Origin: an uncultured Cohaesibacter sp.
Lineage (GTDB): Bacteria; Pseudomonadota; Alphaproteobacteria; Rhizobiales; Cohaesibacteraceae
DNA: 64,000 nucleotides
Direction: 5' to 3'
Assembly (NCBI RefSeq): GCF_963676485.1
Contig: NZ_OY781114.1
Coordinates: 4,294,501-4,358,500 of the forward strand
The translations under genes were made by a program, and so were the position numbers. The notes under the pieces were generated by a model. The model was not told the origin of the DNA and did no database searches. It saw only the letters and a program-made list of their open reading frames with translations. Within the stretch, counting starts at the first letter, position 1, and each line of letters begins with the position of its first letter. Below, piece by piece: positions 36,201-53,112 of the stretch.

Positions 36201-39200
36201 TCTCGTTGCTTTTCAGATCAGCCGCACATCTGACAAGGCAAAGAACGCCGAATTAACACCGACTGAGAAAGAGCGTCTGCGTGCGATAGCACGCCGCACC
36301 TGGCGCTATTTCGAAAGATTCGTCACTCCCGCTGACAATATGCTTCCTCCTGACAATTTTCAGGAAGACCCCAAGCCAGTCATCGCACACAGGACATCTC
36401 CGACCAATATTGGGCTTTATCTTTTATCGGCTGGCGCTGCCTATGATTTCGGATGGGCAGGAAAAAGCGAGACGGTCGAACGGCTGGAATCTTGCTTTGA
36501 AACCCTGCGTCGCATGGAACGTTTCCGCGGACATTTCTTCAACTGGTATGACACAACCAACTTAAAGGTTCTCGAGCCAGCTTATGTCTCCACGGTGGAT
36601 AGCGGAAACCTTGCTGGCCATCTGATCGCTCTGTCAAAAGCATGTACTGAATGGAAAGTTGACTTACCCATTGCTACAGTGCGAATGGGAATGAACGACA
36701 CGCTCATGTTGGCGCTTGAGGCATTTGAGACCGTCATGGTCAAGTCTGCCAGCACTCAACGCCTTGGCCTGCTCTATGAAGAACTCAAATCCGGACTGAA
36801 TGGGGCTCAGGACCTAGAGGTAATCGCGCCAAGATTGGGTCGCATTGCGAGAAAATCGGTTGTGCTGGCAAATGAGGTTTCCATCATTCCGGAAAAAGAC
36901 CGTATGCCAGACATGGTCTACTGGACCACAGCGCTATCGCGCAGAATTCGCGAGTTTGAAAGGGACCTGTCCGCTTCCCCAGAGGTACGGGATCATTTGC
37001 ACCTTCGTTTGGACGCTCTGGCTGATGAAGCGCGAACCATGGCGTTGGCCATGGATTTCACATTCCTCTTTGTCCAAAAGCGGAAACTGCTCTCCATCGG
37101 TTATGCGCGTGCCGAGAACAAGCTTGATGAGAATTGCTATGATCTTCTCGCTTCCGAAGCCAATCTTGCGAGCTTTGTAGCCATCGCAAAAGGGGATATT
37201 CCGACACGCCACTGGTTTAGACTCGGACGACAATCGACGCCAGACAAAAATGGGTCTGCCCTTGTTTCCTGGTCAGGATCGATGTTTGAATATCTGATGC
37301 CTTCTCTGGTGATGCAGGCCCCCACTGATAGCCTTCTTAATGACACCAACCGTCGCATTGTGGCGCTTCAGCAAGGCTATGGCAGAAAGCTGAACCTACC
37401 TTGGGGCATCTCTGAATCTGCGTTTAACGCCCGGGATATTGAGTTTACCTATCAGTATTCCAATTTTGGGGTTCCCGGTTTGGGGTTGAAGCGCGGGCTT
37501 TCGGAGAACCGTGTGATCGCTCCCTATGCGACGGGGTTGGCCGCAATGTTCGACGCCCGCAATGCCTCGATCAACTATGATCGGATAGCTGATATGGGAG
37601 GATCTGGACCTTACGGATTTTACGAGGCCCTGGATTTCACGCAATCCCGATTGCCCGATGGGCAGAAAGTGGCAATCGTCCGCAACGTAATGGCTCATCA
37701 TCAGGGCATGACCATTGTTGCCATCGCCAACGTTATGCATGACGGGCTCATGCGATCGCGTTTTCACAGCGATCCGCTCATCATGGCCAGCGAACTTTTG
37801 TTGCAAGAACGCAGGCCGCGTTATGTGCCTCTGGTTCATCCCGGAGCCGAAGAAGTGAAAGCCTCAACTGAAGAGGCCATATTCAACGAGCCCACAATCC
37901 GGCGCTTCAAGTCTCCACTGGTTGGGGCACCAATTACCCATTTGCTCTCAAATGGCAGCTATAGTGTGATGTTGACAGCACGCGGCGCCGGTTACAGCCG
38001 GTGGGGCGAGATTGCCATTTCGCGCTGGAGTGAGGATTCCACCCACGAAAACTTCGGTTCTTTCATCTTCCTCAAAGATGTCGATTCCGGCTCTGTTTGG
38101 TCTCCTGCCGGTCATCTGGCCAAACGAGACCTGAAACAACAGCAAGTGGTCTTTGCCGAGGATTATGGGGAGTATTCCTGCCGCAACGGATTGCTCTCCA
38201 GCCGAATGGATGTGCTGGTTTCGGGTGAAGATGATGGTGAAGTGAGACGGATAACGCTCTCCAATGCGGGGCTAAGAGCGCGTCATATTGAAGTCACGTC
38301 CTATAGCGAGTTGGTTCTCGCCTCCCCGATATCGGATGCCGCTCATCCGGTCTTTTCCAAGATGTTTGTTGAAACGGAATATCTGCCCGAATTTGGGGGG
38401 CTCCTGGCAAATCGTCGTCGTCGTTCACCAGACGAGCCGGAAGTCTGGGTTAGTCATTTTGCAATTGTGGAAGGGGAAATAGCTCAAGAGCCACAATATG
38501 AAACGGACAGACTGAAGTTTTTGGGGCGCAATCGCTCGCTTCCCAACGCAAAGGCTTTAAACGACAAGGCTTCGCTTTCCAATACAACGGGCACAGTCCT
38601 GGATCCGATCTTTTCCCTAAGGCATCGGGTCAGCATCGCTCCCGGCGAAACATTGCACATCACTTTTTGGACGTTGGTGGCAGCGTCTCGTTCCGAGTTG
38701 ATGAATTTGCTTGATAAGCATCACGACCACAATTCCTATGATCGAGCAAAAACTTTGGCCTGGACACAGGCGCAGGTGCAATTGCGCCACCTGAACGTGT
38801 CTTCAAGCGAAGCGGCAGATTTCCAGAGTTTGACCTCGGCACTTCTCTATTCAGATGCCCGATTCCGTGCGTCTGCTTCAGTGGTCGCCAGTGGGGCTGG
38901 ACGCCAATCAGCGCTGTGGCCATTGTCAATTTCCGGAGACCTTCCCATCGTCCTGTTACGGATATCAGACATGGATGGCTTGCCGCTCGTGAGACGGCTG
39001 CTTCGTGCCTATGCCTATTGGCGTATGAAAGGGCTCCATATCGATCTCATCATATTGAACGATCTTTCAACCAGCTACATCCAGGATTTGCAGTCCGCAA
39101 TACAAACGGCGATGAGATCGTCTCAGATCCGCAATGAAAATGAACATGGATCTGTCTTGCTTCTGCGCTCAGACCAGATCAGTTTGGAAGCAAAATCCCT

Positions 39201-41784
39201 TCTGATTTCGGTTGCGCGCGTGTCGCTTGTAGCCAATCACGGGTCCCTATCTGAGCAATTGGGCCGTATTTTCCAGTCGGACGAGGCGTCAAGGACTGGT
39301 GTTGGTAGTGCATCTCCTATTCCAGTCATTGTCTCAGACCAGGACCTCTTGCCTCAGCCAAAGGATCTGGAATTTTTCAACGAGATTGGAGGCTTCGATA
39401 AAGATGGCACAGAATATGTCATCACTCTGAAGGATAACGACACTACGCCTGCACCATGGATCAATGTGATTGCCAATCCACATTTCGGCTTTCAGGTCTC
39501 GGAGACGGGGAGCGGATATTGCTGGGCAGAGAATAGCCGCGAGAACCAGCTAACGCCGTGGTCCAATGATCCGGTTGCCGATCCTGCGGGTGAGGCAATT
39601 TATATCCGCGATGAGGAAAGCGGTGCGGTTTGGTGTCCAACCGCAAAGCCCATTCGCGACAAAGGCACCTACATAACGCGCCATGGGTTCGGCTACAGCA
39701 GGTTCGAGCATGCCGCCGGAGGGATCCATTCCAATCTGGTGCAATTCGTTCCTCTGTCAGATCCGATCAGAATTTCCAAGTTAACATTGACCAACAGGTC
39801 CAACCGGAGGCGGCACCTATCCGTCACCCTCTATAACGACTGGGTTCTGGGCTCATCCCGGGTCAAGTCCGAACCTTTCATTCTAAGCGAGCGAGATGAA
39901 GAAACCGGGGCTCTGTTTGCAACCAAACCGTGGAATATAGCCTTCCCCGATAGGGTTGCATTTGCCGATTTTAACGGTCTTCAGCAGGAATGGACGGCCG
40001 ACCGAACCGGCTTTATCGGACGAAACAGCAGCCTTGCCCATCCGGAAGCCATGAGAGGCAAAAAAGCACTCTCCGGCACCATGGGTGCGTGCCTTGATCC
40101 GTGTGCAGCACAGCGCACCACCATTGTGTTGGAACCGGGTGAGAGCCATGATTTTGTCTCCCTTCTTGGACAAAGTCGCACCAGAGAGGGCGCTCGTGAA
40201 GTTATCACCCAATACCGCACCTGTGATATCGATGCGTGTCTGTCCGGGGTTCAACGCTATTGGAAGGATAGTTTGGGAGCGGTTCAGGTTAAAACCCCCG
40301 ATCGTGCCATGGACATCATGCTCAATGGTTGGCTCCTCTATCAGACGCAAGCTTGTCGTATCTGGGCGCGCTCTGGATTTTATCAGGCAAGTGGAGCCTA
40401 TGGGTTCCGAGACCAGATGCAGGACCATATCGCACTGACCTTCTCTCAACCGGAGGAAACGCGAAAGCATCTTCTCCTTGCTGCCGGAAGGCAGTTTGTG
40501 GAAGGTGACGTCCAGCATTGGTGGCTCCCTCATTCGGGCCAAGGGGTCCGAACGCATATTTCCGATGACCGAGTGTGGCTGGCCTTTGCCACGGCAACCT
40601 ACATTGCCCAAACCGGGGATGAGGCCATTCTCGGCGAAAAGTTGCCGTTTCTAGATGGTCCTTTGTTGACGGCAGGGACCCATGATGCCTTCTTCGTACC
40701 GGATATTTCCGACAAAACAGGAAGCCTGTTTGAGCACTGCGCCCGTGCGCTGGATCTGTGTCTGGCTTTAACGGGAGAAAACGGGTTGCCGCTGATCGGG
40801 ACTGGCGACTGGAATGACGGTATGAATCGTGTTGGCGAAGCAGGTAAGGGAACCAGCGTCTGGCTCGGTTGGCTGCTTTTGCGGAGTATTCATCTTTTCG
40901 CACCGTTGGCAGAAAAAAGAGATCCCGAACGGGCCAAACTCTGGACCGCACATGCAACCTCCTTGCTCTCATCCCTTGAAAATACGGCATGGGATGGAGA
41001 ATGGTATCGCCGGGCAACCTTTGATGACGGCCTCTGGCTTGGGGCTTCGACCAGTGAAGAATGCAAAATCGATTCCATCGCCCAATCATGGGCTGTCTTG
41101 TCTGGTGCGGCAGACAGGGATCGCGCACGAATGGCCATGCAGTCTCTAGATCAACATCTGGTACTCAGGGATGAGGGCTTGGCCTTGTTGTTCACTCCCC
41201 CTTTCGATCAATCTGCCAGTGATCCCGGTTATATCCAGGGCTATCCGCCGGGGTTACGCGAGAATGGTGGACAATATACCCATGCAGCGATGTGGGCGAT
41301 CCTAGCCTTTGCTCAACTGGGGGAAGGCGAGAAGGCACATGCGCTTTTGTCATTGGTCAATCCGGTCAATCATGCACTAACCCCAGAGGCAACAGATCGA
41401 TACAAGGTGGAACCCTATGTGATTGCCGCAGATGTCTATTCTGTCGCGCCTCATGTCGGGCGCGGAGGGTGGACATGGTATACAGGATCGGCCGGATGGA
41501 TGTATCAGGCTGGCATCTCTGGGATTCTTGGCTTGAGACGCGAGGGAAAAACGCTGATTATCGCTCCTTGTATTCCGAAAAGCTGGCCAAGCTTTCACCT
41601 GCATGTGCGGGTCGATGAGACGGACTATGACGTTGCCGTTTCGCAGTCTTTTGTAGGCAGAGAGGACAGGGCAATCGCCATTCTGGATGGCAAGTCATGT
41701 CCGGTGTCTCACAACAGTGTAAGCGTTCAACTGGATGGACTACATCATAGTTTGCAATTGGAATTGCAAAGACAAAAGGGGTGA
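33286..41784 (+). CDS. ndvB: Cyclic beta-1,2-glucan synthase NdvB
   Basis: About 2,832 residues from the ATG at 33286 (AAGGG upstream), the usual giant size of NdvB/Cgs. An N-terminal region of about 400 residues is followed by two spans (about 405-450) and a GT84 glycosyltransferase domain. That domain has YVITMDADTRLPRDAA (DxD near residue 623) and KRQDRWARGDW (QxxRW near 769). Four further spans follow (about 805-980), then a glycoamylase-like domain (about 1330-1510, YQYSNFGVPGLGLKRGL) and two beta-sandwich units. A GH94 phosphorylase-type domain with GTGDWNDGMNRVG lies near 2505. It self-primes, elongates, trims and cyclises beta-1,2-glucan, used for osmoadaptation and host interaction. 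No ndvA exporter is adjacent. Confidence 0.96.
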   Translation: MISLSFLANLNGQTSKLWRDTTPIREELFSAERLELHAKTLAVAQVVSPNPPRVPTLQKRLKENANAIHAAYLSNAEELENHQNLVPAAEWLLDNYYLIDEQIRAIKSSLPPSYYQQLPKLIDGPLAGYPRVFGIAWAFVAHTDSHFDPEIFLRFIRAYQTIHPLSMGELWALPITLRIVLIENLRRLADQIVAGRNSRIAADTLVDQVLVKKIASDIALAGISSAPLPERFAAQLAKRLRDHDADDIPILAWLEERLSSEGCSIDEVVLRSQQNLGASNLSVRNIITSLRLISGIEWSDAFESVNLVDAELRKSKTFALMDFATRDMYRNAIEVLARRSPVSEIEVTRQVMALVSSAGGADSQDSLSDPGYYLLSDGRPLLETQIDFTPPMRLSILRFSQRLGVGGYVGLISCLALMMLWACIWALNISSIPVGILLCLAGFIPATEVSTAYVNRFVTWSFGAVILPSMEFEHGVSIDSRTMVVVPTMLSNSEELLRQIEHLEIHYLSGPEDDLTFALLLDRIDADQQFIAAEVPMIADGEAAIEQLNKRYGAGVAGKRFLLLVRDRQFNASEGKWMGWERKRGKLQELNQLLRGAKDTTFNALDGTIPWVPDQVRYVITMDADTRLPRDAARKLIGKMAHPLNHPIFDKKTQRIIHGYGILQPRVTPTLTAKGKNTLFHRVFSAPGGIDPYSSAISDVYQDLFGEGSYTGKGIYDVDAFEAALANRIPENTVLSHDLLEGIFVRSGLVSDIEVIDDFPSRYDVACKRQDRWARGDWQLLPWILAWHSHIKSVDLIGFAKILDNLRRSLVAPTLLACLGLVWMLPFTSALLGTCFVLCAVAIPEFVSCFFAVIPRNMGIRINSHFQMLGAEFNAAAIKTLLSLVFLPHQAAIMGRAIIKSVTRLYVTHNHMLQWVTAAQAELACELKLSGFYRLMIGGTALGLVMIAGLAALSLQSLPITGVFACLWLIAPLVAFQISRTSDKAKNAELTPTEKERLRAIARRTWRYFERFVTPADNMLPPDNFQEDPKPVIAHRTSPTNIGLYLLSAGAAYDFGWAGKSETVERLESCFETLRRMERFRGHFFNWYDTTNLKVLEPAYVSTVDSGNLAGHLIALSKACTEWKVDLPIATVRMGMNDTLMLALEAFETVMVKSASTQRLGLLYEELKSGLNGAQDLEVIAPRLGRIARKSVVLANEVSIIPEKDRMPDMVYWTTALSRRIREFERDLSASPEVRDHLHLRLDALADEARTMALAMDFTFLFVQKRKLLSIGYARAENKLDENCYDLLASEANLASFVAIAKGDIPTRHWFRLGRQSTPDKNGSALVSWSGSMFEYLMPSLVMQAPTDSLLNDTNRRIVALQQGYGRKLNLPWGISESAFNARDIEFTYQYSNFGVPGLGLKRGLSENRVIAPYATGLAAMFDARNASINYDRIADMGGSGPYGFYEALDFTQSRLPDGQKVAIVRNVMAHHQGMTIVAIANVMHDGLMRSRFHSDPLIMASELLLQERRPRYVPLVHPGAEEVKASTEEAIFNEPTIRRFKSPLVGAPITHLLSNGSYSVMLTARGAGYSRWGEIAISRWSEDSTHENFGSFIFLKDVDSGSVWSPAGHLAKRDLKQQQVVFAEDYGEYSCRNGLLSSRMDVLVSGEDDGEVRRITLSNAGLRARHIEVTSYSELVLASPISDAAHPVFSKMFVETEYLPEFGGLLANRRRRSPDEPEVWVSHFAIVEGEIAQEPQYETDRLKFLGRNRSLPNAKALNDKASLSNTTGTVLDPIFSLRHRVSIAPGETLHITFWTLVAASRSELMNLLDKHHDHNSYDRAKTLAWTQAQVQLRHLNVSSSEAADFQSLTSALLYSDARFRASASVVASGAGRQSALWPLSISGDLPIVLLRISDMDGLPLVRRLLRAYAYWRMKGLHIDLIILNDLSTSYIQDLQSAIQTAMRSSQIRNENEHGSVLLLRSDQISLEAKSLLISVARVSLVANHGSLSEQLGRIFQSDEASRTGVGSASPIPVIVSDQDLLPQPKDLEFFNEIGGFDKDGTEYVITLKDNDTTPAPWINVIANPHFGFQVSETGSGYCWAENSRENQLTPWSNDPVADPAGEAIYIRDEESGAVWCPTAKPIRDKGTYITRHGFGYSRFEHAAGGIHSNLVQFVPLSDPIRISKLTLTNRSNRRRHLSVTLYNDWVLGSSRVKSEPFILSERDEETGALFATKPWNIAFPDRVAFADFNGLQQEWTADRTGFIGRNSSLAHPEAMRGKKALSGTMGACLDPCAAQRTTIVLEPGESHDFVSLLGQSRTREGAREVITQYRTCDIDACLSGVQRYWKDSLGAVQVKTPDRAMDIMLNGWLLYQTQACRIWARSGFYQASGAYGFRDQMQDHIALTFSQPEETRKHLLLAAGRQFVEGDVQHWWLPHSGQGVRTHISDDRVWLAFATATYIAQTGDEAILGEKLPFLDGPLLTAGTHDAFFVPDISDKTGSLFEHCARALDLCLALTGENGLPLIGTGDWNDGMNRVGEAGKGTSVWLGWLLLRSIHLFAPLAEKRDPERAKLWTAHATSLLSSLENTAWDGEWYRRATFDDGLWLGASTSEECKIDSIAQSWAVLSGAADRDRARMAMQSLDQHLVLRDEGLALLFTPPFDQSASDPGYIQGYPPGLRENGGQYTHAAMWAILAFAQLGEGEKAHALLSLVNPVNHALTPEATDRYKVEPYVIAADVYSVAPHVGRGGWTWYTGSAGWMYQAGISGILGLRREGKTLIIAPCIPKSWPSFHLHVRVDETDYDVAVSQSFVGREDRAIAILDGKSCPVSHNSVSVQLDGLHHSLQLELQRQKG

Positions 41785-42451
41785 GCAGACTTTGTGAACG
41801 CGCAAAATCCCGATGTGTTGGTGCTCTACGAGCGCCAACGGGTTGAGCGTGTCAGTCGTTCGGCACATGACGGGAGGTTCTATCTCTTCGTCCGTCTTCG
41901 GTAACAACCAAACTTCTTATATTTTGCTGTGTCCGCCCACCGGTCACATCGTGACTAAAAATGCAACATTTTGTTCGAGTGGCAGGAATGAGAAAGTTGC
42001 CCTGCGGAATTTGCTGACAGACGAACGGCAGGATAGAGTCTGGGATTTCAACATGCCAATTGTTGCACCCATGAATGGCCCATAAATCTCAATGTACACC
42101 TTGGGCTGATTTTGATGAAAAAGGGTTTCTCTCAGATTTCTTGCCGAAATCCTAGAATGCAATTTCTCATAGTGGTACTGAGGAGGATTGGAATCCGGCT
42201 TTTCAAGAGATCAGGAATGAATTTTTACAAAACTGAACGCCAAGTATAGATCATCGCCTTTTTCATCAAAATCGGCTCAATCCGGACTGGTGCACTGCAT
42301 CAATGATTTAAAACGTGATTTAAAACGGCCATTCAGGCCCTGTTTTGCAATGGCGGCCCATTGCTGCCGTTCCCCAGTCAGCATATTCCATAATGCTGGC
42401 TCCACGTTCCGGACATTCGATCAAGCCGCAGAAAGTTGCTTGTTGTGAAGG
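41785..42451. other. Intergenic region at the left edge of the plasmid-like insertion
   Basis: 667 bases with no supported gene. It holds a 12-bp tandem duplication (42304-42327) and a 16-base match (42416-42431) to the dispersed repeat at 32.1 kb. This is probably the left junction of the mobile segment, but no attachment repeat could be paired with the right side by eye. Confidence 0.45.
42304..42327. repeat. 12-bp perfect tandem duplication
   Basis: TGATTTAAAACG occurs twice without spacer. Confidence 0.8.
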
Positions 42452-44608
42452 CTAATCGTCATCTCGACGCCTTTGATGATCCCATGCTTCGAGAAAGACA
42501 CGCACAGTTTCTTTCTCTTCAGCAGTGATCGCCTCACTATCTTGAACGGCTCTGAGCGCCTCTCGAAAAGACGTGACGTCAATGATATCCGTGTCATCAT
42601 TGATTTGTGCCGTAACGTTACGCCTCGGCACTCTATCACCGAGTGAACCAAAGCCGCCCATGCCCATAGACCATGACTCTCCGGTCATCGCTTGCGCAAG
42701 CGAGACTAATCCTTTGGGGTCGAGTAGTAATGCATTCGTCCACGCACGAACCTCAGATGGGTCATTGTCCATAAAATCTATCCACCGATAAAGAATGTAG
42801 AGCAAATCCGGATGGCCTAGGAGCGTTCCATTTGCGGCAGCAGAACGAATTGCGCCTAGCGCTCGATTAGTAAGCGCTGGTAAGACAGCTTCTGTAGTGA
42901 GGCAATCTTCCTCTCGTGTTGGCTGCCGACCTTCACGGACCTGGTAATCGCCTTTGGCCGAAGACACAAAATCCACGAGCCACCCTAACGCCGCGTTTCG
43001 GGTAGCAACCAAATATAGATCCGATCGCTCTTGGATCGTAAAACGATCGCGCGTAAGACGTCTTATGAGCCAGTGGTAGCGAAGGCTAGTGTTTGCCATC
43101 GCCATAAAGCCCCTTTCAGCATCCCCTTTTTGATCGATTTCGTCGTGGATTTCAAACAGGGCACATATTAGTGGTTGAACCTTTGCCTTTTCGACACGTG
43201 CTCCATTCGTCGTGAGTTCGTCGAGATACACTGGAACCATTGACTGACCTGTCCGGCGTTCGACCTGAGATGCCTTACGAAATGCTGACTGTATGAAATC
43301 CCGATCTTCAGCCTTATCAATGAGTTCATCGATTTGTGCGGCCGACAAAACCTCATCACTAAGGGAAAGACGAAAGTAAGTGTCGAAATGCGTTTCGATG
43401 CAGATTCGGCGTTCAGCACTCCACTCGCGAGTCCATTCTCCGGTATAGCCCATGTTTTCTAACCGAGGGAATATCCGCTGAAGAGCCGACTTGGCACGCT
43501 CATGCCTATCTTCGGGCATGTCCCGAAGAAATACATCAAATCGGCTTTCGTCGTTTCCGTTTGCGCCGTGCTGGCCTTGCGTACCGCATACCAACTGTTT
43601 GTTTGATTTGATAGCTGAAAAAAGAACTGGTTCATAAAGCCTGAGAGCTTCTAGAGCCACAAAATCGGCCGAATTTATATCGCCCGCAATCGCAGGCCAC
43701 GTCACGCTAATAGCATTTTGGAAGCGGCTGACGTGACGAGGAGAAGTTATGTACGGCGCAACAACGTCGTAAAAGACATTCATGAAGCGGACTATTTGCT
43801 CCTCGTCGGGCGATCCACAGATCTCGGAGATCGATGCTAACACTGCATTGTTAAGGTCCGTAGGAAGCGGAGCCGGAAGCTCAAACCCTGCCTGTATGAT
43901 CTTTTCAAGAAAGTGAGGGCCTTCTGATGGGTACTTCTCGCTAACCGCATTTTCAGCAAGTTGTCTATCAAACACTACAAGGTACATCACGTTTGGCAAC
44001 CGCCCCACTGACTTGATCAGTCGAAAAATGGCGAGAGCTTCGTCTGGAGCCAACCGATCTAAATCATCAATAACGACGAGAAACCTTTGATCTTGTTCAG
44101 CAAGTACTTCGGCCAGCTTTTGAAAGGTCGTTTCCAAGGTGTCTCCCTCAGGGAAGAAGCGCTTTGCGAAATCAAACGCCCCACCGATCAGCCCGGCAAA
44201 CGGTCCTGCCGGAGTGAGAGCAATTGCAGGTCCTATTATAGGACCTGCCTGCAAGACCCCACGCCCCAACCTCGGAACCAGATCTTTGACCTTGTCTTTG
44301 AGCGTTGAGCCTAGCACTGCGTTAAGGTTTTGAAGGAACGCAAGGGCCAGTGCCTCTTCGCCCCTGTACCACCAACACTTGAATTCAGTAATGACAAGTC
44401 GAGAATCATTGGCTTCTTTCAGCGCTGATCGGATAAGATTAACCGCGCTGCTTTTCCCAGAGCCCCACGGTCCATTTAAGGCAATTGTGGTGCCGATCGG
44501 TTCTTCAATTTTCAAGATGCTTTTCGCCAAAGAAGTGGCGAACGGAGCAATTCCATATCGGTCATCTTCACTGCTTTCGATTGGGCTATCGTTGAAATAG
44601 TTTTTCAT
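42452..44608 (-). CDS. KAP-family P-loop NTPase
   Basis: 718 residues. Walker A GPWGSGKSS is at residues 46-54 and Walker B FLVVIDDLDRL at 176-186, with KCWWYRGEEALALAF after the P-loop, all typical of KAP NTPases. A hydrophobic Gly/Pro-rich segment lies between the two motifs (about 119-146, GPIIGPAIALTPAGPFAGLI), matching the membrane insert characteristic of the family. The C-terminal 400 residues are helical with no domain I recognise. GGGGA precedes the ATG. KAP proteins include phage-exclusion factors, and here the gene is divergent from the small membrane protein / TPR-PIN pair inside a mobilizable element, so a defence role is the leading inference. Confidence 0.85.
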   Translation of the reverse strand: MKNYFNDSPIESSEDDRYGIAPFATSLAKSILKIEEPIGTTIALNGPWGSGKSSAVNLIRSALKEANDSRLVITEFKCWWYRGEEALALAFLQNLNAVLGSTLKDKVKDLVPRLGRGVLQAGPIIGPAIALTPAGPFAGLIGGAFDFAKRFFPEGDTLETTFQKLAEVLAEQDQRFLVVIDDLDRLAPDEALAIFRLIKSVGRLPNVMYLVVFDRQLAENAVSEKYPSEGPHFLEKIIQAGFELPAPLPTDLNNAVLASISEICGSPDEEQIVRFMNVFYDVVAPYITSPRHVSRFQNAISVTWPAIAGDINSADFVALEALRLYEPVLFSAIKSNKQLVCGTQGQHGANGNDESRFDVFLRDMPEDRHERAKSALQRIFPRLENMGYTGEWTREWSAERRICIETHFDTYFRLSLSDEVLSAAQIDELIDKAEDRDFIQSAFRKASQVERRTGQSMVPVYLDELTTNGARVEKAKVQPLICALFEIHDEIDQKGDAERGFMAMANTSLRYHWLIRRLTRDRFTIQERSDLYLVATRNAALGWLVDFVSSAKGDYQVREGRQPTREEDCLTTEAVLPALTNRALGAIRSAAANGTLLGHPDLLYILYRWIDFMDNDPSEVRAWTNALLLDPKGLVSLAQAMTGESWSMGMGGFGSLGDRVPRRNVTAQINDDTDIIDVTSFREALRAVQDSEAITAEEKETVRVFLEAWDHQRRRDDD

Positions 44609-44851
44609 TTAATCCCCATTCACAGCGGCCGGAAACAGCCTGAGATTGAATCAATATCGCAACAAAGCAGTTGCAAAAGTTCGGATCTGATTAGAATCAA
44701 ACATTGACAATAAATCGCGCAAGCTCAACCTATTATCGAATACTATAGAACTTGCACCCAATTCTGCTCTATATTGGGTGAATAACAGCGACGGGGGCAA
44801 TAGACGTGTTTCGTGGCATCCTCATGCTAAACACAAGATTGGAGGCGCAGA

Positions 44852-45025
44852 ATGTTGGAAAATGCATACTGGATTGCGGGCATCGTTTTAGCGATAGCTA
44901 CGGTTATCGGACTTTTAGTCAAGCTCAATAGAGGGAAGTCAATAACCACAAATCAAAACGCCCGAATCTCGGGCCAAAATAATACGGTAAATCAGAGCGC
45001 CAAGAGCCGCGACGGAGACAGCTAA
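44852..45025 (+). CDS. 57-residue single-span membrane protein with C-terminal SGxxNxVNQ motif
   Basis: MLENAYWIAGIVLAIATVIG begins a single hydrophobic helix (about residues 5-24), followed by basic KLNRGK and a polar tail carrying NARISGQNNTVNQSAKS. A strong ribosome site GGAGG lies 6 bases before the ATG. The stop is 5 bases before the TTG of the large TPR-PIN gene, so the pair is an operon. The tail motif matches residues 23-35 of that large protein at seven of thirteen positions plus an Ile/Val exchange. Topology would put the tail in the cytoplasm. I know no family; it could be a membrane anchor or a small membrane-damaging effector for its partner. Confidence 0.75.
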   Translation: MLENAYWIAGIVLAIATVIGLLVKLNRGKSITTNQNARISGQNNTVNQSAKSRDGDS

Positions 45026-45030
45026 GTAAG

Positions 45031-48000
45031 TTGGGCAAGTTCAATTTTTCAGAGATTGCGTATTTTGTTAGTTCGAAGCTTAATAGAAGCGCTCAAACTG
45101 CGACCGTCAGCGGCGAACGCAACGTGGTCAATCAAACTATCAATAACTTCATCATCAGCGATGAGAGTGGTCCCACCGCCAAGCAACTGGTGGAATCCAC
45201 GCAGTCGAGCCAACAGTCGGCGAGCCATACTTCATTTGCTGTTCAGACTCCAGAAAGTGATGACCGCGAAGAGATTAAACGCATTCTGGAATACCGGCAA
45301 ATTGCTTCCGATGGAGATAGTTCTACAGCACTTGTCCTTTTGCAAAAGCTCACTCAGGATGTCAAATATCAATCGGGCTACTTCGGGTTTAGACTTCATT
45401 TCAACATAGGTATTATTCAGCAAAATATTGGTGAATATGAGAAGGCTAGCACATCACTTAGGCTAGCACACTCTTTGTGTCCAGAAGATAAAAAAGCCCA
45501 AACCGCACTAGCTCTTGCTGAGCTACTCGACGGGGAGTGTCTCACTGCATTTGACCGAAGCTTTGATTTGTTGAAACATGACGGTGATCATCGGAGTTTG
45601 GCAGCTAGTGTCCTCTGTCACTCGGCGCGAAAAATTGAAACTAAGGTGGTTCTTGAGGAGACAATAGACAAAGACCTGTCTTCTCCCGAAGTCATCGCTG
45701 CGTATCTGGAATATCTTCGCGATATACGACCTGACGATTACCGAGAAACCCTGATAAAAGCTTTCGAAGATCATAATGAGTTCGAAGCGATAAGGTCTTT
45801 GTGGGCGTTAGAATCGCTCAACGATGCTAGGCAAAACCAAGCATTCTTGCTGGGTGCGGTAATGCCAGAGGGCTTTGAAGATCGCCTCGCTGAATCTGCT
45901 GAAATACTCAAAAAGGAATTGGAGGAGGCCCTCGAACTTCGACCTGCTAATAAATTGCTTCTCCCATCCCAAGCAAACAACGCTGCTGTCGCGCTACGTC
46001 TGTCAGGCAGAGTGTCTGAAGCAGCGCAGCTCATCGATAGAACGCTTTCCGAGCACCGAGATCTCCTTGATCAACTTGCCCAAATCCGAGCAGTATTGTT
46101 TCTACAGGAGGACAAGGACATCAAGGCGCTAGAACTGATCCGTCCCTTGTCAGACTGCGCCGAGCTGCAAATTATGGCATCGGAGATAGAGGCAAAACTT
46201 GGCGATCATGCAACAGCACTGTGTAGAATAGAAGCGGTTCTTGACAATGAGCTTCCCGCCGAACTGTTGTCGCTGGCCCTTGAGACCAAGGGGCGAATCG
46301 CGATCAACTATATGCTGCAAGAACCAGCTGATCAGGCAATAGAAGAGCTGACCGCAATTTCTTCCGAAAAGAATGAACTTTTGTTGCTGCGCTCGGCCTA
46401 CGAACGCGCCTTCGTCATTCATACTGATAAGGATCAATTTGAAGAATTACCCATTGCCGTCTCTTCCGAAACAAAAGATGAGCGGAAGCTGCTGGCTTCA
46501 CTCAAAAATGCCGATGATTGGGATTTTGCTACTGTTCTCATGACCGCAGATGAACTGCTGGCCCGAGGATTCTTTCGGGAATGCTCTGATTTGCTAAACG
46601 GAAGAGTGAGATTTTCTTCAGAAAGTCCCGCTTTGAGTACTCTATGCGATGCTTGTTTGCGCGGTCATTTGGGCCGCCTCTCCAAGGAGATCAACGAAGC
46701 TCTCTCTCAAAGTGTAAAGAACTCCGTTTTCGGATGGAGGTTTGCTGCTAATGTCGCCATTCTGAATGGTGAAGTTGCAAAGGCCGTGCCTCTAGCCAGA
46801 AAGCTTTTTGAGCACAGCTCTGGTTCAATCAGTGCTTTGGACTGGTATGTGCAGTCGCTCTTGCGAACCAACGCCAGAGAAAGGATTCATCGCCTCATTA
46901 ATAGCCTGAATGACTCCGAGCTAAGTGGCACGATTGGCGATAGATCCCAATATGTAAAAATCTTGGTTTTCTGTGGTGAGGTCGAGAGGGCTCGTTCATT
47001 CGCCTATAGACTATTCTGCGGAAACCAGAATGATCACCGCGCCTGGATGGCACTAAGTGCTAGTGTTCTCGCCTTTGGACGCCCATTTCCCTCCGACGAC
47101 GATTTCAAAATTACAACCATCCAAGAAGATGCGACATTTGAAGTCGAGAAGCCTGATGGAACTCGACAAACTTTCACGATTGAAATGCACGAAGATTTGT
47201 ACAATCTTCGAGACGGCAACATCAAACTAAGTCACCCCGTTGCCATGGCCGCGCTTGGTAAGGCATCTGGCGAAAGATTCCATTGGCCTCTGAAAGGAAA
47301 TGGCGAAGCAACCATAGTCTTTGTCAAACACAAGGTTTTGGCAGCGTTTCATCAAATCATAGAGAGGTTTGAGGAGCAATTTCCAGAAGCATCGGGTTTC
47401 AAATCAGTATCCGTCAACTTTGAGAATGAGAATGGTCTTGATGAGATGAAGTCGGTTCTGCGGGAGCGCGCCGAATATTCTCAGCAGAAGGCGCAGGAGT
47501 ATTCAGAAGGTTCTTACCCTATATACATCCTCGGCTTTCATCTTGGCATTGACCCGATAGATGCAATTCTTGGTCTGAAAAGCGATTGTGGAATTGCTCC
47601 TAAGGTTTCGTCTTGCTCGCAGAAAGATCAAAATGACGCAGAGAAAGCACTGACCATAGCAAGAAAAAACGGACTAATTGCAGATGCCAGTGCATGCTAC
47701 TTGATCCGAAGGTTAGGCATCGAAAAAGCAATCGAAGGCGAATTTGGGAAGATTGGAATTACACAAGAAACCATCGATATTTTTCTTCGGAGACTGGATA
47801 ATTTTGAGAGTTCGATTTTTCATGATACCGAGACTGGTGCCCCAAAGGCTGGCAATATTTCCGTGCGCAACGGGCGCATTGTCCTAACCGAGCTTTCCGA
47901 GTGCGAAGTCAAATCCAAAATGGAGCTGATACGCTCTGATCTGGACTGGCTACAGAATGAGTGCGCATTGCTTCCCGCAGTCCCCAAGGCAGATCCAGCC

Positions 48001-48585
48001 GATATCATTCTTGACTTTCGGCAGCAGGACGGCGGACGCTTCTTCGATGACATATTCGCCGCTAACGGTGCTGATCGTTTGCTGCTTTCTGATGACTACC
48101 ACCTGAGGAGATGGGCTGACGAATTCTTTGGTGTCAAAGGTGCTTGGATCCAAGCTCTTTTATTTCACTTGGAAAGTTCTGGTCACCTCGAAACGCGGGA
48201 TGTTGTGAAATGCACTCTTCACCTCCAAGGACTGGGTGAAGATGCGCTCAGCACCAATTCATACAGAGTTTTAGTAGCTGCTGAACTGCTTTCAAGTGGT
48301 GAGCTTTCAGAGCGTGAGTTTACGAAATTCGTCGCGCTTTTGGGTCAAAAAGGTGCGGGAATGAGCTCCCATATTCAGGTTACGGTTAGCGCTCTACGAG
48401 GACTTTGGACGACTAAAAGTCTGGTAGGAGTGAAAAATCAGGCGACGAGTATAATTCTTCGAAACTTAATTCGCTTTCAAGGTTCCGACAGTAAGGAGGT
48501 TTTGAATACTGTTCAGGCTATGTTACGAAACACTGAAGCTAGCGACTACATTTCTGGCTGGCGGATCGGCCATTTTCTGGCCTAG
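45031..48585 (+). CDS. Large TPR / GreAB-C-like / PIN-like conflict-system protein
   Basis: 1,184 residues from a TTG, the only available start after an in-frame stop at 44980. Residues 23-35 (TATVSGERNVVNQ) repeat the motif of the upstream small protein. About 80-680 is an array of TPR-like helical repeats (FNIGIIQQNIGEYEKASTSL; NNAAVALRLSGRVSEAAQLI). Around 690-790, LSHPVAMAALGKASGERFHW resembles the GreA/GreB C-terminal domain. About 880-1045 reads as a PIN-like nuclease: LIADASACYLIRRLG, then LLLSDDYHLRRWADEFFGVKG with acidic residues suited to metal binding. This order matches what is called TPR-GreAB-C-PIN, as I recall it from domain databases. Target is probably RNA, possibly at RNA polymerase or ribosome; both are inference. 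Confidence 0.72.
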   Translation: MGKFNFSEIAYFVSSKLNRSAQTATVSGERNVVNQTINNFIISDESGPTAKQLVESTQSSQQSASHTSFAVQTPESDDREEIKRILEYRQIASDGDSSTALVLLQKLTQDVKYQSGYFGFRLHFNIGIIQQNIGEYEKASTSLRLAHSLCPEDKKAQTALALAELLDGECLTAFDRSFDLLKHDGDHRSLAASVLCHSARKIETKVVLEETIDKDLSSPEVIAAYLEYLRDIRPDDYRETLIKAFEDHNEFEAIRSLWALESLNDARQNQAFLLGAVMPEGFEDRLAESAEILKKELEEALELRPANKLLLPSQANNAAVALRLSGRVSEAAQLIDRTLSEHRDLLDQLAQIRAVLFLQEDKDIKALELIRPLSDCAELQIMASEIEAKLGDHATALCRIEAVLDNELPAELLSLALETKGRIAINYMLQEPADQAIEELTAISSEKNELLLLRSAYERAFVIHTDKDQFEELPIAVSSETKDERKLLASLKNADDWDFATVLMTADELLARGFFRECSDLLNGRVRFSSESPALSTLCDACLRGHLGRLSKEINEALSQSVKNSVFGWRFAANVAILNGEVAKAVPLARKLFEHSSGSISALDWYVQSLLRTNARERIHRLINSLNDSELSGTIGDRSQYVKILVFCGEVERARSFAYRLFCGNQNDHRAWMALSASVLAFGRPFPSDDDFKITTIQEDATFEVEKPDGTRQTFTIEMHEDLYNLRDGNIKLSHPVAMAALGKASGERFHWPLKGNGEATIVFVKHKVLAAFHQIIERFEEQFPEASGFKSVSVNFENENGLDEMKSVLRERAEYSQQKAQEYSEGSYPIYILGFHLGIDPIDAILGLKSDCGIAPKVSSCSQKDQNDAEKALTIARKNGLIADASACYLIRRLGIEKAIEGEFGKIGITQETIDIFLRRLDNFESSIFHDTETGAPKAGNISVRNGRIVLTELSECEVKSKMELIRSDLDWLQNECALLPAVPKADPADIILDFRQQDGGRFFDDIFAANGADRLLLSDDYHLRRWADEFFGVKGAWIQALLFHLESSGHLETRDVVKCTLHLQGLGEDALSTNSYRVLVAAELLSSGELSEREFTKFVALLGQKGAGMSSHIQVTVSALRGLWTTKSLVGVKNQATSIILRNLIRFQGSDSKEVLNTVQAMLRNTEASDYISGWRIGHFLA

Positions 48586-49018: not shown

Positions 49019-49156
49019 CCGTTCAATGAGCATTTCGCTGTCTCTGTAGGGCCGATCCAAAAAATTTAGTAAAATTCGCATTTGCGTTTTTCTTTCGGTG
49101 ATATCGAACCCACTTCCCTTCCATTTGAATGTTTCAACCGAATGAAAGGAAAGCCA

Positions 49157-49825
49157 ATGCCCTATATTATTTCTGTTGTCTCCCAGAAGGGAGGGGTCGG
49201 CAAAAGCACGATTGCCCGCATGATCGCGGTCGAATTTGCACGGATGGAGGGTGGCTGCTGGCAAGTGTTGCTTGCCGATCTGGATCCATCGCAAGCAACT
49301 GCCTATAGATGGTCACAATGGCGCAAGGAAAACGCCATGAAGCCAGATATCGATGCCAGACCATATGCAAGTCCCGAACAGGTGTTGGCGGATTCAGGCA
49401 AATATCACATTGTTATCGTCGATGGTGCCCCCAATGCATCCCGCGACACGCTACGCGTTGCTCAAGCTGAGGATGTTGTCATCATCCCAACCGGCACATC
49501 ACGCGACGACCTCATTCCAACGGTCCAACTGGCAAACGAGCTCGAGAAAAATGACATATCACCGCAAACCATCGTCTTTGGTCTCAACCGGCTTGGCTCC
49601 AGCCCTGTCGAAAACAAAGAAGCCAGAGACTATCTCGAACAGACTGGCTATCGCGTGGCATCAGGTGAACTGCGCGACATGGTAACCTACCGAAGGGCAA
49701 GTGATCTTGGTCAAGCGATCACGGAAACATGTCTCGGAGAACTCAACAATCGCGCCCGTGTATTTTTCCGGTCGCTGATGAAAGAGCTGTTCGAAGCCAA
49801 TGAGGAACAATCAGGAGAACGATGA
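49157..49825 (+). CDS. parA: ParA-family partition ATPase
   Basis: About 222 residues from the ATG at 49157 (AAAGGAAAG upstream; the frame opens earlier). The deviant Walker A SQKGGVGKST is at residues 9-18 with the signature lysine, followed by LLADLDPSQATAYRW and VIVDGAPNASRDT. It is a short ParA of the plasmid type without an N-terminal HTH, which usually leaves autoregulation to a small RHH partner. It overlaps that partner gene by 4 bases (ATGA). Confidence 0.92.
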   Translation: MPYIISVVSQKGGVGKSTIARMIAVEFARMEGGCWQVLLADLDPSQATAYRWSQWRKENAMKPDIDARPYASPEQVLADSGKYHIVIVDGAPNASRDTLRVAQAEDVVIIPTGTSRDDLIPTVQLANELEKNDISPQTIVFGLNRLGSSPVENKEARDYLEQTGYRVASGELRDMVTYRRASDLGQAITETCLGELNNRARVFFRSLMKELFEANEEQSGER

Positions 49826-50064
49826 TGCCTCTGAAAAAGCCCAGCATCGATAATCCAAACCGCAAAGGCAGCCCTGAAGCCGACCTGCAGGTGGCAACCA
49901 CAACCAATCTGATCAAATCACCAAGGGGCATGAAGAGACAGCTCAATATGCTTGTTTCTGAGGAGACCTTGCGAGATTTCAAAATGACCTGCGTGGCACG
50001 AGGCATTCCGATGGGACAGCTATGGCAGCTGGTTTGGGAAGAATGGCGAGCAAGAAATCCATAA
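49822..50064 (+). CDS. Ribbon-helix-helix partition/repressor protein
   Basis: 80 residues. A disordered N-terminus (about 1-30) precedes an RHH motif: KRQLNMLVSEETLRDFKMTC forms the strand and first helix, and GIPMGQLWQLVWEEWRA the second helix. Size, layout and coupling to parA match ParG/Omega-type centromere-binding proteins with a flexible arm. GGAGAAC precedes overlapping ATG codons at 49822 and 49825. It is the likely binder of the 8-bp array at 48.9-49.0 kb. Confidence 0.82.
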   Translation: MMPLKKPSIDNPNRKGSPEADLQVATTTNLIKSPRGMKRQLNMLVSEETLRDFKMTCVARGIPMGQLWQLVWEEWRARNP

Positions 50065-50304
50065 CCCCACCACCCCAATTGAGCCGTTTTCAAGTTCAGG
50101 ATGATGGAACATCTTTGGCATGGATCAATGTGACTGGATAGTTCGAGAATTGACTGTCACAACTGACTATAGTGTTCGCCAATATATGGGAAAAGGTGAT
50201 GAACTTCGAGATAAACAAGGAACTGAAATAGTTTGACGCTGGCTTCAGTTGACTTGCCAATCTCTGGTGTTCGCTGGGGAATTGGTCGGCACATTTATCG
50301 AGTC

Positions 50305-52197
50305 TTATCTGCTTCTTGTGCCTTGTGGTCTTTCTTGCTGATCCGCCCGGTTTGCGAATTGATCTGCATTATTTACGACCCAAGCTGCCTTTCGGCGGAA
50401 TTTGTCATAGTCCGATGGGTGCATATAGTCGCGGGCTGATCTCACAATGCCTGCAATCTGCTCATAGGCCTTGTTCCACCTGCTTTCGGCCGTTTGAGCC
50501 CGTTGCTCTGCCTTCTTGGCTTTATCTTTCACGGCTCTATTGATCGTCGCATTGACTGCCCGACCAACTCTGGAAGCAAGTCTTTTGTCTAGCTTCATCC
50601 TTACCTCAAGACCCTTGACCCTTTCGGGATTTGCTCCGTTGAGCGCAATAAAACCGTCATTGGGTTTGTCTGCATCAAAGTCAAACAAACCTTCCGCCGC
50701 GGTAAAAACTGCGGCCGACCCCACAATTGCGGCATTTTCAGCCTGCTTTGTCCGTTTTAGAATGTTGACCAAGGGCATGACCGCCCCCAGTGCAGTTTTC
50801 GGAGCAAGCCGGATTCGTGAGAGTAGTGTATCCGCTGTTTGTTTATCAGTATTTTCTGCTACCCGGAATTCGTTGCCTTCCCGACTATGATCGACCGTTC
50901 CGCATTCCTCAGACACCCATTCGATTGCCGCCAATTGCGCGTCCAGCTTATTCTTCAGAGGTCTGAAAGCTGCCCTAAGGGCCTTTGTAGCATCAATGGC
51001 CGCTTTTGGTGATGTCTTGATCGCAGCCAGAAGGGGCTTTGCTTTATCGGAATCGGCATCCTTGGCTACTTTAGATGGCTCTTCCGCGTTCGTCAGATCC
51101 GCAACAATAGTGCCTTCGGCGATCCCTTTCGTTGCGGTCAAACGCGCATCTGCCTCTTGTTTTGCTTCTTCTGCCTTGGCAATGATCTGATCACCCTCCG
51201 CCTGTTTTTGCCGCTGTTCGAAATATAGCTCGTCTTGACGTTCAAACAGCTCCTCTTCTGCAATCTGGATCTTGCATTCTTTAGAAGTCACATACTCTTC
51301 AAATTCCCGCTTTTCCTTTTCCAACTCCTGCCGTTTTGCCTCGATGCTTTCCTGCAGGCTATTTGATTCGTCGATTGTTTTTCTAGCCTCCGGCAGATCT
51401 CTTCTCATCAGCGCAAGCTGCTCATGAGCAGCCATTTGCTGTAGGTATTCTGCTCGTGGCAGGCGAAATCGCTTGGGGCCATATCGCATCAGGCCAGCGT
51501 CCCTGAAAACTGAAGTATAGAAATCATCTTGCCACTGACGCATGGCATCACAATAGGCTCGACCCTGTTCGGCCACATTGTCTTTCTTCCAGCCAGCGCC
51601 TCGACGGATATTGTCAACGGCCACTTTTCCAGGATGAAGCCATGTGATCTCTCCACGCACAGGATCAATGCCATAAACATGGATATGCATATGCGCTTCG
51701 TCTCGGTGCACAACTGCCATTGCAAATTGACCACCAGCCGCTTCGAGCCGGTCCTTTTCGAAGCGCACAACTTGATGAAACAATTCCATACACTCGTTCA
51801 TCAGGTCGGGCATTGCCCATGCATCAGCACTCAGTATTGGAAGCGAAATCACAGATGAATAAAGCGTGTGTTTATCGACTCGCAGGGCTTTGGTTCGTAC
51901 GGATTTTTTTCCATTCTTTGGATTTGTATATGGCACCTGCTGCTTGACTTTGCAGGCATCATTGTGAGCTTGGCGTAGCTCATCAAAATTTTTACAAGAG
52001 CCCGCGATGACATCGCCACGGTAACCAATCACCACCCGATCAACATAGCTGCGCGCCCAGACCTCTTGATGGCCACAGGCCACGGGAACCGAGCCGTCAT
52101 TGGTGTCGTAGCGAACCAGAGATTGGGAGCTGACGCGACCTCTGGTCTGATTGCAGGCCCCAAAGGAAGCTTCTGGCAAAGGCATGAACATGCCCAT
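50305..52197 (-). CDS. MobV-like (Pre/Mob) relaxase
   Basis: About 630 residues from the ATG at 52197, chosen for a CGGAGG site 9 bases upstream; the open frame extends to a GTG at 52251. The metal-binding motif VVHRDEAHMHIHVYGID (H-x-H-x-H, about residues 165-178) is that of plasmid mobilization relaxases, preceded by EKDRLEAAGGQFAMA. The middle is a long coiled coil (about 255-360, SIEAKRQELEKEKREFEEY), and the C-terminus is Ala/Lys-rich. It would nick oriT to start transfer. No type IV secretion genes are present, so the element would be mobilizable only with help. Confidence 0.85.
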   Translation of the reverse strand: MGMFMPLPEASFGACNQTRGRVSSQSLVRYDTNDGSVPVACGHQEVWARSYVDRVVIGYRGDVIAGSCKNFDELRQAHNDACKVKQQVPYTNPKNGKKSVRTKALRVDKHTLYSSVISLPILSADAWAMPDLMNECMELFHQVVRFEKDRLEAAGGQFAMAVVHRDEAHMHIHVYGIDPVRGEITWLHPGKVAVDNIRRGAGWKKDNVAEQGRAYCDAMRQWQDDFYTSVFRDAGLMRYGPKRFRLPRAEYLQQMAAHEQLALMRRDLPEARKTIDESNSLQESIEAKRQELEKEKREFEEYVTSKECKIQIAEEELFERQDELYFEQRQKQAEGDQIIAKAEEAKQEADARLTATKGIAEGTIVADLTNAEEPSKVAKDADSDKAKPLLAAIKTSPKAAIDATKALRAAFRPLKNKLDAQLAAIEWVSEECGTVDHSREGNEFRVAENTDKQTADTLLSRIRLAPKTALGAVMPLVNILKRTKQAENAAIVGSAAVFTAAEGLFDFDADKPNDGFIALNGANPERVKGLEVRMKLDKRLASRVGRAVNATINRAVKDKAKKAEQRAQTAESRWNKAYEQIAGIVRSARDYMHPSDYDKFRRKAAWVVNNADQFANRADQQERPQGTRSR

Positions 52198-52516
52198 CCA
52201 TCCAGGCCTCCGCCGTTGCCGCTGGATGGGCCCGAATGAAGTAGGCGTCACTATGATTGCTCGGTATTGGGGCCACGGGTTCGAAGCCTCTCAGCGCACA
52301 TCGTAAGTTCGGTTAGGCTTCGAGATGCTCATCCTAGATGCATTCTTGAGGGAGATTTTAGTCGAAAAACTGAATGGTAGAAAACCGGTGAACTGGCTGA
52401 AAGTGACACAGCTGCATGCATTGGGAATAAAACGAACCTTTTTTTGCAAAGGAGGCACCAACAGATAAGACAGATTGTGGGTATGTTTTTTTTAAGCCCG
52501 AAAACAGGAGGCGAAT
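52198..52516. other. Region upstream of the relaxase, likely site of oriT
   Basis: 319 bases between the divergent relaxase and cytochrome b561 genes. MobV-type oriT sites usually lie just upstream of the relaxase, but I could not identify a clear inverted repeat plus nic site. The right half also contains the b561 promoter and its AGGAGG site. Confidence 0.4.
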
Positions 52517-53095
52517 TTGCTGGAGCCGGACACAAAATCGCAATTGCTATTGCAAAGCACGCAACCAACTCAGAAACTGGTGAATACGGAATGCTATCCG
52601 GCAACCTCACGTGTCTTACATTGGGTGGTTGCTCTGCTGGTACTGGTAACTTGGCCACTCGGTTTTGTCATTCATCTGATCAAGAGTGAAGCTGCCATGA
52701 CTTTCTATATGTTGCACGAGGGCTTTGGATTCCTGGTGTTGTGGGTGATGCTCCTGCGCGTCGGAAACAAACTGTTGGTTCGTAGTCCGATAGTGGAAGG
52801 GCACCGGCTTGAACAAATCGCTGCACACTCGGTGCATGGTTTGCTTTATGTGCTTTTGATCGTGATGCCCGTCAGCGGCTTTCTGGCAACCAATGCCCAT
52901 GGTTTTCCTTTGCACTGGTTCGGACTTTTCAAGATCTGGAGTCCTGTCGGCAAGGCCCCCGATATCGCGGGTTTTCTATCCGGCATCCACTTCTGGAGCG
53001 CATGGCTGCTGCTTGGCCTTTTCGCTCTTCATATGGGCGCCGTGCTGATGCATCACGTGATCAAGCGGGATCATACGCTCTACAAAATACTCTGA
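52517..53095 (+). CDS. Cytochrome b561-family membrane protein
   Basis: 192 residues from a TTG placed 6 bases after AGGAGG. Four spans (about 32-52, 65-85, 106-126, 152-178) carry the haem-ligand histidines: RVLHWVVALLVL, MLHEGFGFLVLW, AAHSVHGLLYVLL and LFALHMGAVLMHH. This is the bacterial cytochrome b561 / CybB type, which takes electrons from quinol. It is 17 bases before the RibD-like reductase gene on the same strand, so it may provide redox power or simply share a promoter. Confidence 0.88.
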   Translation: MLEPDTKSQLLLQSTQPTQKLVNTECYPATSRVLHWVVALLVLVTWPLGFVIHLIKSEAAMTFYMLHEGFGFLVLWVMLLRVGNKLLVRSPIVEGHRLEQIAAHSVHGLLYVLLIVMPVSGFLATNAHGFPLHWFGLFKIWSPVGKAPDIAGFLSGIHFWSAWLLLGLFALHMGAVLMHHVIKRDHTLYKIL

Positions 53096-53112
53096 TAGAG
53101 GAGTTTGCAGCT

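Follow-up and report, generated by a model that had tools for sequence, protein, structure and literature searches.

A probable split TPR-GreA/B-C-PIN conflict system in a Cohaesibacter genome, with a proposed link to a separate small membrane protein by a short shared motif

Results

A motif shared between a membrane protein and a TPR-GreA/B-C-PIN protein

We analysed a 64,000-nucleotide (nt) stretch of DNA from an uncultured Cohaesibacter sp. (contig NZ_OY781114.1, positions 4,294,501 to 4,358,500; hereafter the window), in which two adjacent genes encode a small membrane protein of 57 amino acids (aa), P0002, and a large TPR-GreAB-C-PIN protein, P0003. We consider it probable (roughly 0.7) that the two form a split, two-gene version of the TPR-GreA/B-C-PIN conflict system, a membrane effector encoded by its own gene being brought in through a short, possibly amyloid-type motif. 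This reading draws on the core domains of P0003, the lack of a recognisable fused effector, a motif common to the two proteins and the conservation of that motif in a relative of the same genus, L071. The core itself is already known, and the new part is the P0002/P0003 motif pair, which suggests that a sensor is coupled to a separate membrane partner.

The motif, SGxxNxVxQ, is present as VSGERNVVNQ at the N-terminus of P0003 and matches ISGQNNTVNQ in the C-terminal tail of P0002 (residues 39-48). The local score of the P0002 C-terminus against the P0003 N-terminus was 49. Among 546 background N-termini, a set that excludes P0003 itself owing to its TTG start, the sole one scoring at least 49 was the L071 receptor, with 56. 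Locus L071 (genome G1049, 64% complete) encodes a TPR-GreAB-C-PIN protein that is 43% identical to P0003 and matches PF20698 at 6.8e-20. Its gene overlaps by one base that of a 63-aa one-span protein, which is 42% identical to P0002 and likewise precedes the TPR gene, and the two proteins carry the same motif pair. Because this homologue precedes the L071 receptor gene, the open reading frame (ORF) of P0002 is likely a real gene. P0002 and its homologue have in common YWIAGI in the span and, in the tail, QN followed by SGxxNxVxQ. The sequence-only reading, an earlier annotation made without database searches, had described P0002 as a single-span protein and grouped it with P0003. Hydropathy agrees, with one strong span at residues 5-23 (mean 2.39), and the grouping is upheld by the shared motif and by the same pair in L071. 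No Pfam family matched P0002 over its cut-off, and tblastn searches of plasmids with P0002 and the L071 membrane protein gave weak matches (best E about 3 and 5).

The matched stretch covers few residues, many of them N, Q, G or S, which would suit a chance or low-complexity resemblance, with P0003 working alone as the published standalone system. This explanation is very improbable: none of 5000 shuffles reached the window score (the best was 48), the same motif pair is kept in a relative at 43% identity, and a separate second clade has the same layout.

Domain architecture of the core protein

Pfam placed PF20698, which it names "PIN domain associated with the TPR-GreAB-C-PIN system", at residues 883-1030 of P0003 (2.3e-20; 73.7 bits, with the cut-off at 27.8). 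TPR_14 was found over its cut-off (3.8e-07) and TPR_2 slightly under its own (5.8e-06), the best TPR match covering residues 121-161. For P0003 itself, GreA_GreB was not reported by Pfam at E <= 0.1; in the L071 receptor the matching place (residues 698-763) gave PF01272 GreA_GreB at E = 0.033, under the cut-off. Using hhalign, the GreAB-C region (after residue 690) of 39 aligned family rows was matched to 17 GreA-type proteins with 97.1% probability (E = 7.7e-11, 73 columns), and with 81.2% (E = 1.2e-5) when the query was cut to the window, L010 and L071. As negative controls against the same GreA set, the family PIN and TPR regions gave probabilities of 0.8% and 0.0%. A GreA/B-C domain between the TPR and PIN parts of P0003 is clear by profile comparison.

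In the PIN region, Asp885 is present in 39 of 39 family rows and Asp1022 in 38 of 39 (Glu in the other), with 38 of 39 for each upon realignment. A profile comparison with four VapC-like or PIN proteins gave no similarity, and the basis for the predicted PIN domain is PF20698 together with the conserved aspartates. No NTPase family was found in P0003 at E <= 0.1, and residues 1-110 match no Pfam family at E <= 5 and hold the short motif only. A weak hydrophobic span was predicted at residues 831-849 (mean 1.47).

The sequence-only reading of P0003 as TPR repeats, a GreA/B C-terminal-like domain and a PIN-like nuclease proved right, by PF20698, the TPR families and profile-profile alignment. 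The profile searches that it proposed for the product returned TPR and PIN from Pfam, and GreAB-C by profile comparison only. Its idea of a conflict system was likewise correct: the core is an already published one, that of the TPR-GreA/B-C-PIN system (PF20698; Kaur et al. 2021, eLife e70394).

A second clade with HetE-N partners

The same layout, with an unrelated partner, was found in a second clade of receptors. Plasmid searches with the receptor of locus L048 gave 11 records and searches with its upstream partner gave 9, of which 7 were in both; neighbourhoods were examined for 9 of 9 records from the partner search and 9 of 11 from the L048 search (all but H75 and H76). The hosts are gammaproteobacterial plasmids, from Pantoea, Rahnella, Rouxiella, Pseudomonas, Pseudoalteromonas, Vibrio and Photobacterium, together with two genomes of the phylum (L048 and L057). 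The partner is about 110 aa long, and its gene immediately precedes that of the receptor, at distances from a 29-nt overlap to a 100-nt gap, and HetE-N (PF20701) was found in all five partners scanned with Pfam. Among the receptors, PF20698 is clear in L048 and L058 and is also matched in L057. Similarity to L048 extends over nearly the full length in L059-L062 and over 77% of the query in L064. Adjoining the HetE-N pair in L048 (10429-12166) and L057 (10203-11940) are two genes that we take to encode a DarT-like and a macro-domain DarG-like protein (DarTG).

The partner ends in a C-terminal motif, typically QxHxGxGDNVGGNKI, which is found again at the receptor N-terminus. Variants are matched in both proteins: GDNVARDK in L060, GDAF.GDK in L065, AVYGDKVM in L066 and GHNV in L058. 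Motif sharing between unrelated neighbouring proteins is clear by sequence comparison. Motif scores co-varied between divergent branches, with a matched mean of 58.0 against a permuted mean of 42.8 over ten pairs (P = 0.00015; 0.00009 in a repeat), and a slightly different set of 11 pairs gave P = 0.00014. L063, whose receptor is annotated as two coding sequences (CDS), entered the permutation test with its first CDS only. Control regions of the ten pairs carried no pairing signal (partner body, P = 0.75; receptor residues 61-160, P = 0.998).

A further pair was found in L068, a Buttiauxella plasmid (5061-8155). Here tblastn with the L048 partner detected a 106-aa protein resembling the HetE-N partner and ending in GDNVGGNK, and the receptor, of 922 aa, has a matching motif at its start. 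Because this receptor matches no Pfam family, we read L068 as the motif pair joined to a different or strongly diverged receptor, and the pair may serve other receptors too.

The second clade also bears on what P0002 does. The shared motif could simply be a docking strand by which the PIN protein is held at the membrane, or P0002 could act there as an antitoxin-like inhibitor that keeps this protein inactive; in neither case would P0002 be a killer. P0002 is tiny, with one span, a short tail and no known toxin family, and the tight order of the two genes is toxin-antitoxin-like. The partner position in the second clade is instead occupied by HetE-N, and a HetE N-terminal-type domain is listed as an effector in the passages of Kaur et al. 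on the system (eLife e70394). Fused relatives have another domain at the motif position, PNP_UDP_1 in L037. We regard a tether or inhibitor as unlikely.

Distribution, N-termini and phylogeny of the family

The family is sparse in the order, class and phylum samples: matches over the cut-off, with the window's own genome counted, were found in 7 of 297, 2 of 385 and 10 of 398 genomes, respectively. A class-wide search with P0003 gave, besides the window, a match in 1 of 376 genomes (E = 6e-4), which covers residues 720-779 only and may be a GreA protein. In the family-wide search, relatives of P0003 were present in only 2 of 20 genomes, the window's and G1049. No relative was found in the viral contigs and phages searched. 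For the plasmid relatives, 16 of 19 neighbourhoods were examined (all but H3, H13 and H14), and several lie near genes annotated as SIR2, Shedu, CBASS phospholipase, TIR, AAA plus UvrD, or AbiE.

Many relatives are about 1300 aa long, with an N-terminal stretch that we read by eye as restriction-endonuclease-like: G(R/T)xGxxQxGxD, present in 21 of the 39 family rows, and then QCK. Pfam gave this stretch no name in L022 or L030. The Nostoc plasmid relative L037 carries PNP_UDP_1 at its N-terminus, in the position of the window motif. Two Rhodobacterales plasmid relatives, L033 and L034, differ again at the N-terminus, where a hydrophobic, Gly-rich stretch (in L034, AVPAVGGPLATIG) went unnamed by Pfam and may be a fused membrane effector.

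We scored 38 loci for a motif-matched upstream neighbour. It was found in 13 (scores 46-77, reached by 0 of 400 shuffles each) and not in the other 25 (scores 18-31), a proportion that is not a population frequency, because the searches that revealed the second clade used L048 as query. The 38 loci derive from the 39 family rows without L010, whose N-terminus lies off its contig. Outside the 39 rows are L026 and L035 (interrupted or cut genes), L067 (the record ends before the receptor), L063 (the two-CDS receptor), and L044, L046, L052, L053, L054 and L055 (PF20698 under the cut-off). L024 was taken from its annotated start, inside a longer frame, for alignment and scoring; L068 was kept in the scoring and left out of the tree and the permutation test.

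A tree was built from the GreAB-C domain to the C-terminus, without L010, L045 and L068, and includes 12 split rows. The window and L071 stand apart from the second clade, and the split state takes two changes on the tree. Forcing the 12 split rows together lowered the log-likelihood by 17.3 and was rejected (p-AU 0.0108) in an approximately unbiased (AU) test run after the first tree had been seen. Two origins of the split form are likelier, because the partners are unrelated, the motifs are unlike and the tree argues against joining the split rows.

Observations that weigh against motif-coupled recruitment

Several observations weigh against motif-coupled recruitment of a membrane effector. 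The membrane-partner form is known from two loci, the window and L071, and the score of P0002 with its own P0003 (49) is below that with the L071 receptor (56). In the second clade, the own receptor was the best-scoring one in only 5 of the 10 pairs; since P0002, too, does not score best with its own receptor, the motifs alone show no strict specificity. Without the divergent L058, L065 and L066, the other seven pairs scored 55.6 against 53.1 (P = 0.092); for this reason, and because of the 5 of 10 own-best matches, co-variation is shown only between the divergent branches. Part of the second-clade pairing signal also comes from neighbouring genes being inherited together. Membership of the second-clade receptors in the family is uneven: PF20698 was not matched by L059, L060, L061, L064 or L065 and was under the cut-off in L066, and similarity to L048 covers 42% of the query in L065 and 25% in L066. 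In the PIN region of P0003, residue 958 is Cys where 28 of 39 family rows have Glu, so that one acidic position may be lost. AlphaFold prediction of residues 690-1184 from a two-row alignment had a mean predicted local distance difference test (pLDDT) score of 46.4, too poor for use, and the PADLOC models matched neither P0003 nor any of five relatives and partners. Finally, the RHIM/PP core G-(I,V)-Q-(I,V)-G, as named in the relevant passages of PMC7885112, is absent from the window motifs, and RHIM/PP membership of the window motif was rejected on this ground.

Discussion

Relation to the published system and to amyloid signalling

In the sections on the system, Kaur, Burroughs and Aravind (2021; eLife e70394, PMC8195603) describe a conflict system with a constant core of TPR, GreA/B-C and PIN, whose N-terminal position holds EAD10 or one of 13 effector types, including REase, PNPase and a fungal HetE-type domain. 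In their proposal, the protein engages RNA polymerase by docking at its secondary channel, PIN cuts the transcript, and the N-terminal effector drives a death response, directly or through EAD-EAD contacts. P0003 has the same core and follows the same principle of a variable N-terminus, and HetE-N, the second-clade partner, corresponds to a published effector type, the HetE N-terminal-type domain. In the account given in those sections the genes are mostly standalone with a fused effector or EAD10, whereas the window partner is a separate small gene joined by a short common motif. The effector classes named in the PMC8195603 section on the system include no one-span membrane partner. Because the effector position is called variable there, we treat the unfused P0003 as a variant and not as an exclusion. 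The word "amyloid" occurs once in PMC8195603, in its reference list. TPR-GreA/B-PIN systems with sirtuin domains are mentioned in a passage of PMC9503650, and the passages of PMC13092281 (DefensePredictor) on the PIN-domain systems DS-3 and DS-5 draw no tie to the TPR-GreAB-C-PIN core. Among the titles listed, none points to a motif-coupled split form; HetE-N neighbours may already stand in the supplementary tables of eLife e70394.

The closest parallel by arrangement is BASS (bacterial amyloid signalling sequences). In the NLR and Bell pairs described in passages of PMC7889193, PMC8086366 and PMC12261475, related motifs lie at the C-terminus of an adjacent effector and at the receptor N-terminus. 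In the window, too, the genes are adjacent, and the motif stands C-terminally in a small effector candidate and N-terminally in the receptor. As described there, the BASS Bell case likewise has a small effector with a membrane helix, and BASS motifs are roughly 20-40 residues long. Unlike the BASS receptors, P0003 is no NLR (no NACHT or NB-ARC NTPase was found). For this reason, and because the window motifs lack the RHIM/PP core given in PMC7885112, we do not claim BASS membership. By analogy with BASS, RHIM and HET-s signalling, it is plausible that the motif is amyloid.

Following Kaur et al. 2021, the GreAB-C domain would dock at the secondary channel of RNA polymerase once an invader has subverted the enzyme, and PIN would cut the transcript. 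The TPR part would sense this state of the polymerase and cluster P0003. The exposed N-terminal motifs of P0003 could then template or bind matching P0002 tails, a step supported by the sequence pairing, and the gathered P0002 spans might harm the inner membrane or collapse its potential, halting the infected cell. The published core is predicted to be mostly standalone with a fused effector; the split, motif-coupled form would add a signalling step on a non-NLR receptor, resembling the fungal HET-S/NWD2 and animal RHIM pathways. Since the short tags have natural variants, the pairing rules are directly testable. More tentatively, TPR-GreA/B-C-PIN could represent a second amyloid-signalling receptor class without an NLR-type NTPase, watching RNA polymerase and templating separate effectors (a one-span membrane killer; HetE-N), with at least two split origins; we hold this wider proposal to be possible and rather doubtful.

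The locus, the KAP neighbour and the mobile surroundings

The three ORFs of the locus were confirmed at the positions given by the sequence-only reading, with exact limits (Table 1). The TTG start of P0003 lies 5 nt past the P0002 stop, and the KAP gene is divergent, separated from the pair by 243 base pairs (bp). Promoter and terminator scans gave site numbers about equal to those in shuffled sequence.

Table 1. Features of the locus, in window positions
Feature	Positions	Strand	Basis and remarks
KAP-family NTPase, PifA-like, 718 aa	42452-44608	-	PF07693, PADLOC PifA; divergent neighbour, judged outside the system
P0002, one-span membrane protein, 57 aa, candidate effector or anchor	44852-45025	+	ORF, hydropathy, L071 homologue, motif
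P0002 motif ISGQNNTVNQ (partner side)	44966-44995	+	Motif scan, DNA, local alignment to the P0003 N-terminus
P0003, TPR-GreAB-C-PIN protein, 1184 aa, TTG start, system core	45031-48585	+	PF20698, TPR families, profile comparison
P0003 motif VSGERNVVNQ (receptor side), residues 26-35	45106-45135	+	Fused N-terminal domain here in most relatives
P0003 TPR region, about residues 81-690, approximate limits	45271-47100	+	Pfam TPR matches; alignment with relatives
P0003 GreA/GreB C-terminal-like domain, about residues 690-770	47098-47340	+	hhalign against 17 GreA proteins
P0003 PIN domain, residues 883-1030, Asp885 and Asp1022	47677-48120	+	PF20698, conserved aspartates

The identity of the neighbour as a KAP P-loop NTPase was borne out by Pfam (PF07693, 3.5e-43). 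PADLOC matched PifA over residues 3-653 (2.5e-116), and a weak membrane span was predicted at residues 124-142 (mean 1.5). The protein thus resembles the PifA/KAP exclusion proteins, with no sign of a role in the P0002/P0003 pair. The sequence-only reading had joined the KAP NTPase, P0002 and P0003 into one three-gene system. The gene is adjacent and divergent, and KAP NTPases are named in other conflict systems in passages of Kaur et al. (eLife e70394, PMC8195603). The neighbourhood survey that the earlier reading had proposed showed no repeated adjacency of KAP and the pair: a KAP relative was found in 0 of 47 loci (693,733 bases) around relatives of the receptor or the HetE-N partner at E <= 1e-3, with a positive control, the Agrobacterium KAP, found at 1.2e-158. 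The flanks vary from locus to locus among the relatives, and the 14-kilobase (kb) piece of L071 holds no KAP relative. Conversely, of the 17 other genomes in the genus, 5 carry a KAP relative, and no P0003 relative was found in the 15-16 kb pieces around the three strongest KAP matches (G1053, G197 and G1050) or in the piece examined around the Agrobacterium plasmid KAP. A three-gene unit is extremely improbable, and the KAP gene is probably a bystander, a separate PifA-like defence-type gene. Taken as a whole, the first interpretation was right about the domains, the conflict system and the grouping of P0002 with P0003; its KAP unit fell away, and the P0002-P0003 motif had been overlooked.

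Downstream of the pair lies a ParA-like gene (49082-49825), whose end is overlapped by an 80-aa ORF. The product of 50305-52251, 648 aa long, matches the MobV relaxase weakly (E = 0.0021; 18.2 bits, with the cut-off at 100); it also shows a short Mu-transposase C-terminal match. A plasmid-derived backbone at 49082-52251 is possible, and the KAP gene and the P0002/P0003 pair may be cargo of one mobile region. The flanking genes (39200-41784 and 52517-54728) are about 1.5 megabases (Mb) apart in G1053, and therefore the region is no simple insertion between two genes adjacent in G1053. Just past the 3' end of the KAP gene, at 42101-42280, lies an inverted repeat of 24 nt with 92% complementarity and arms 132 nt apart.

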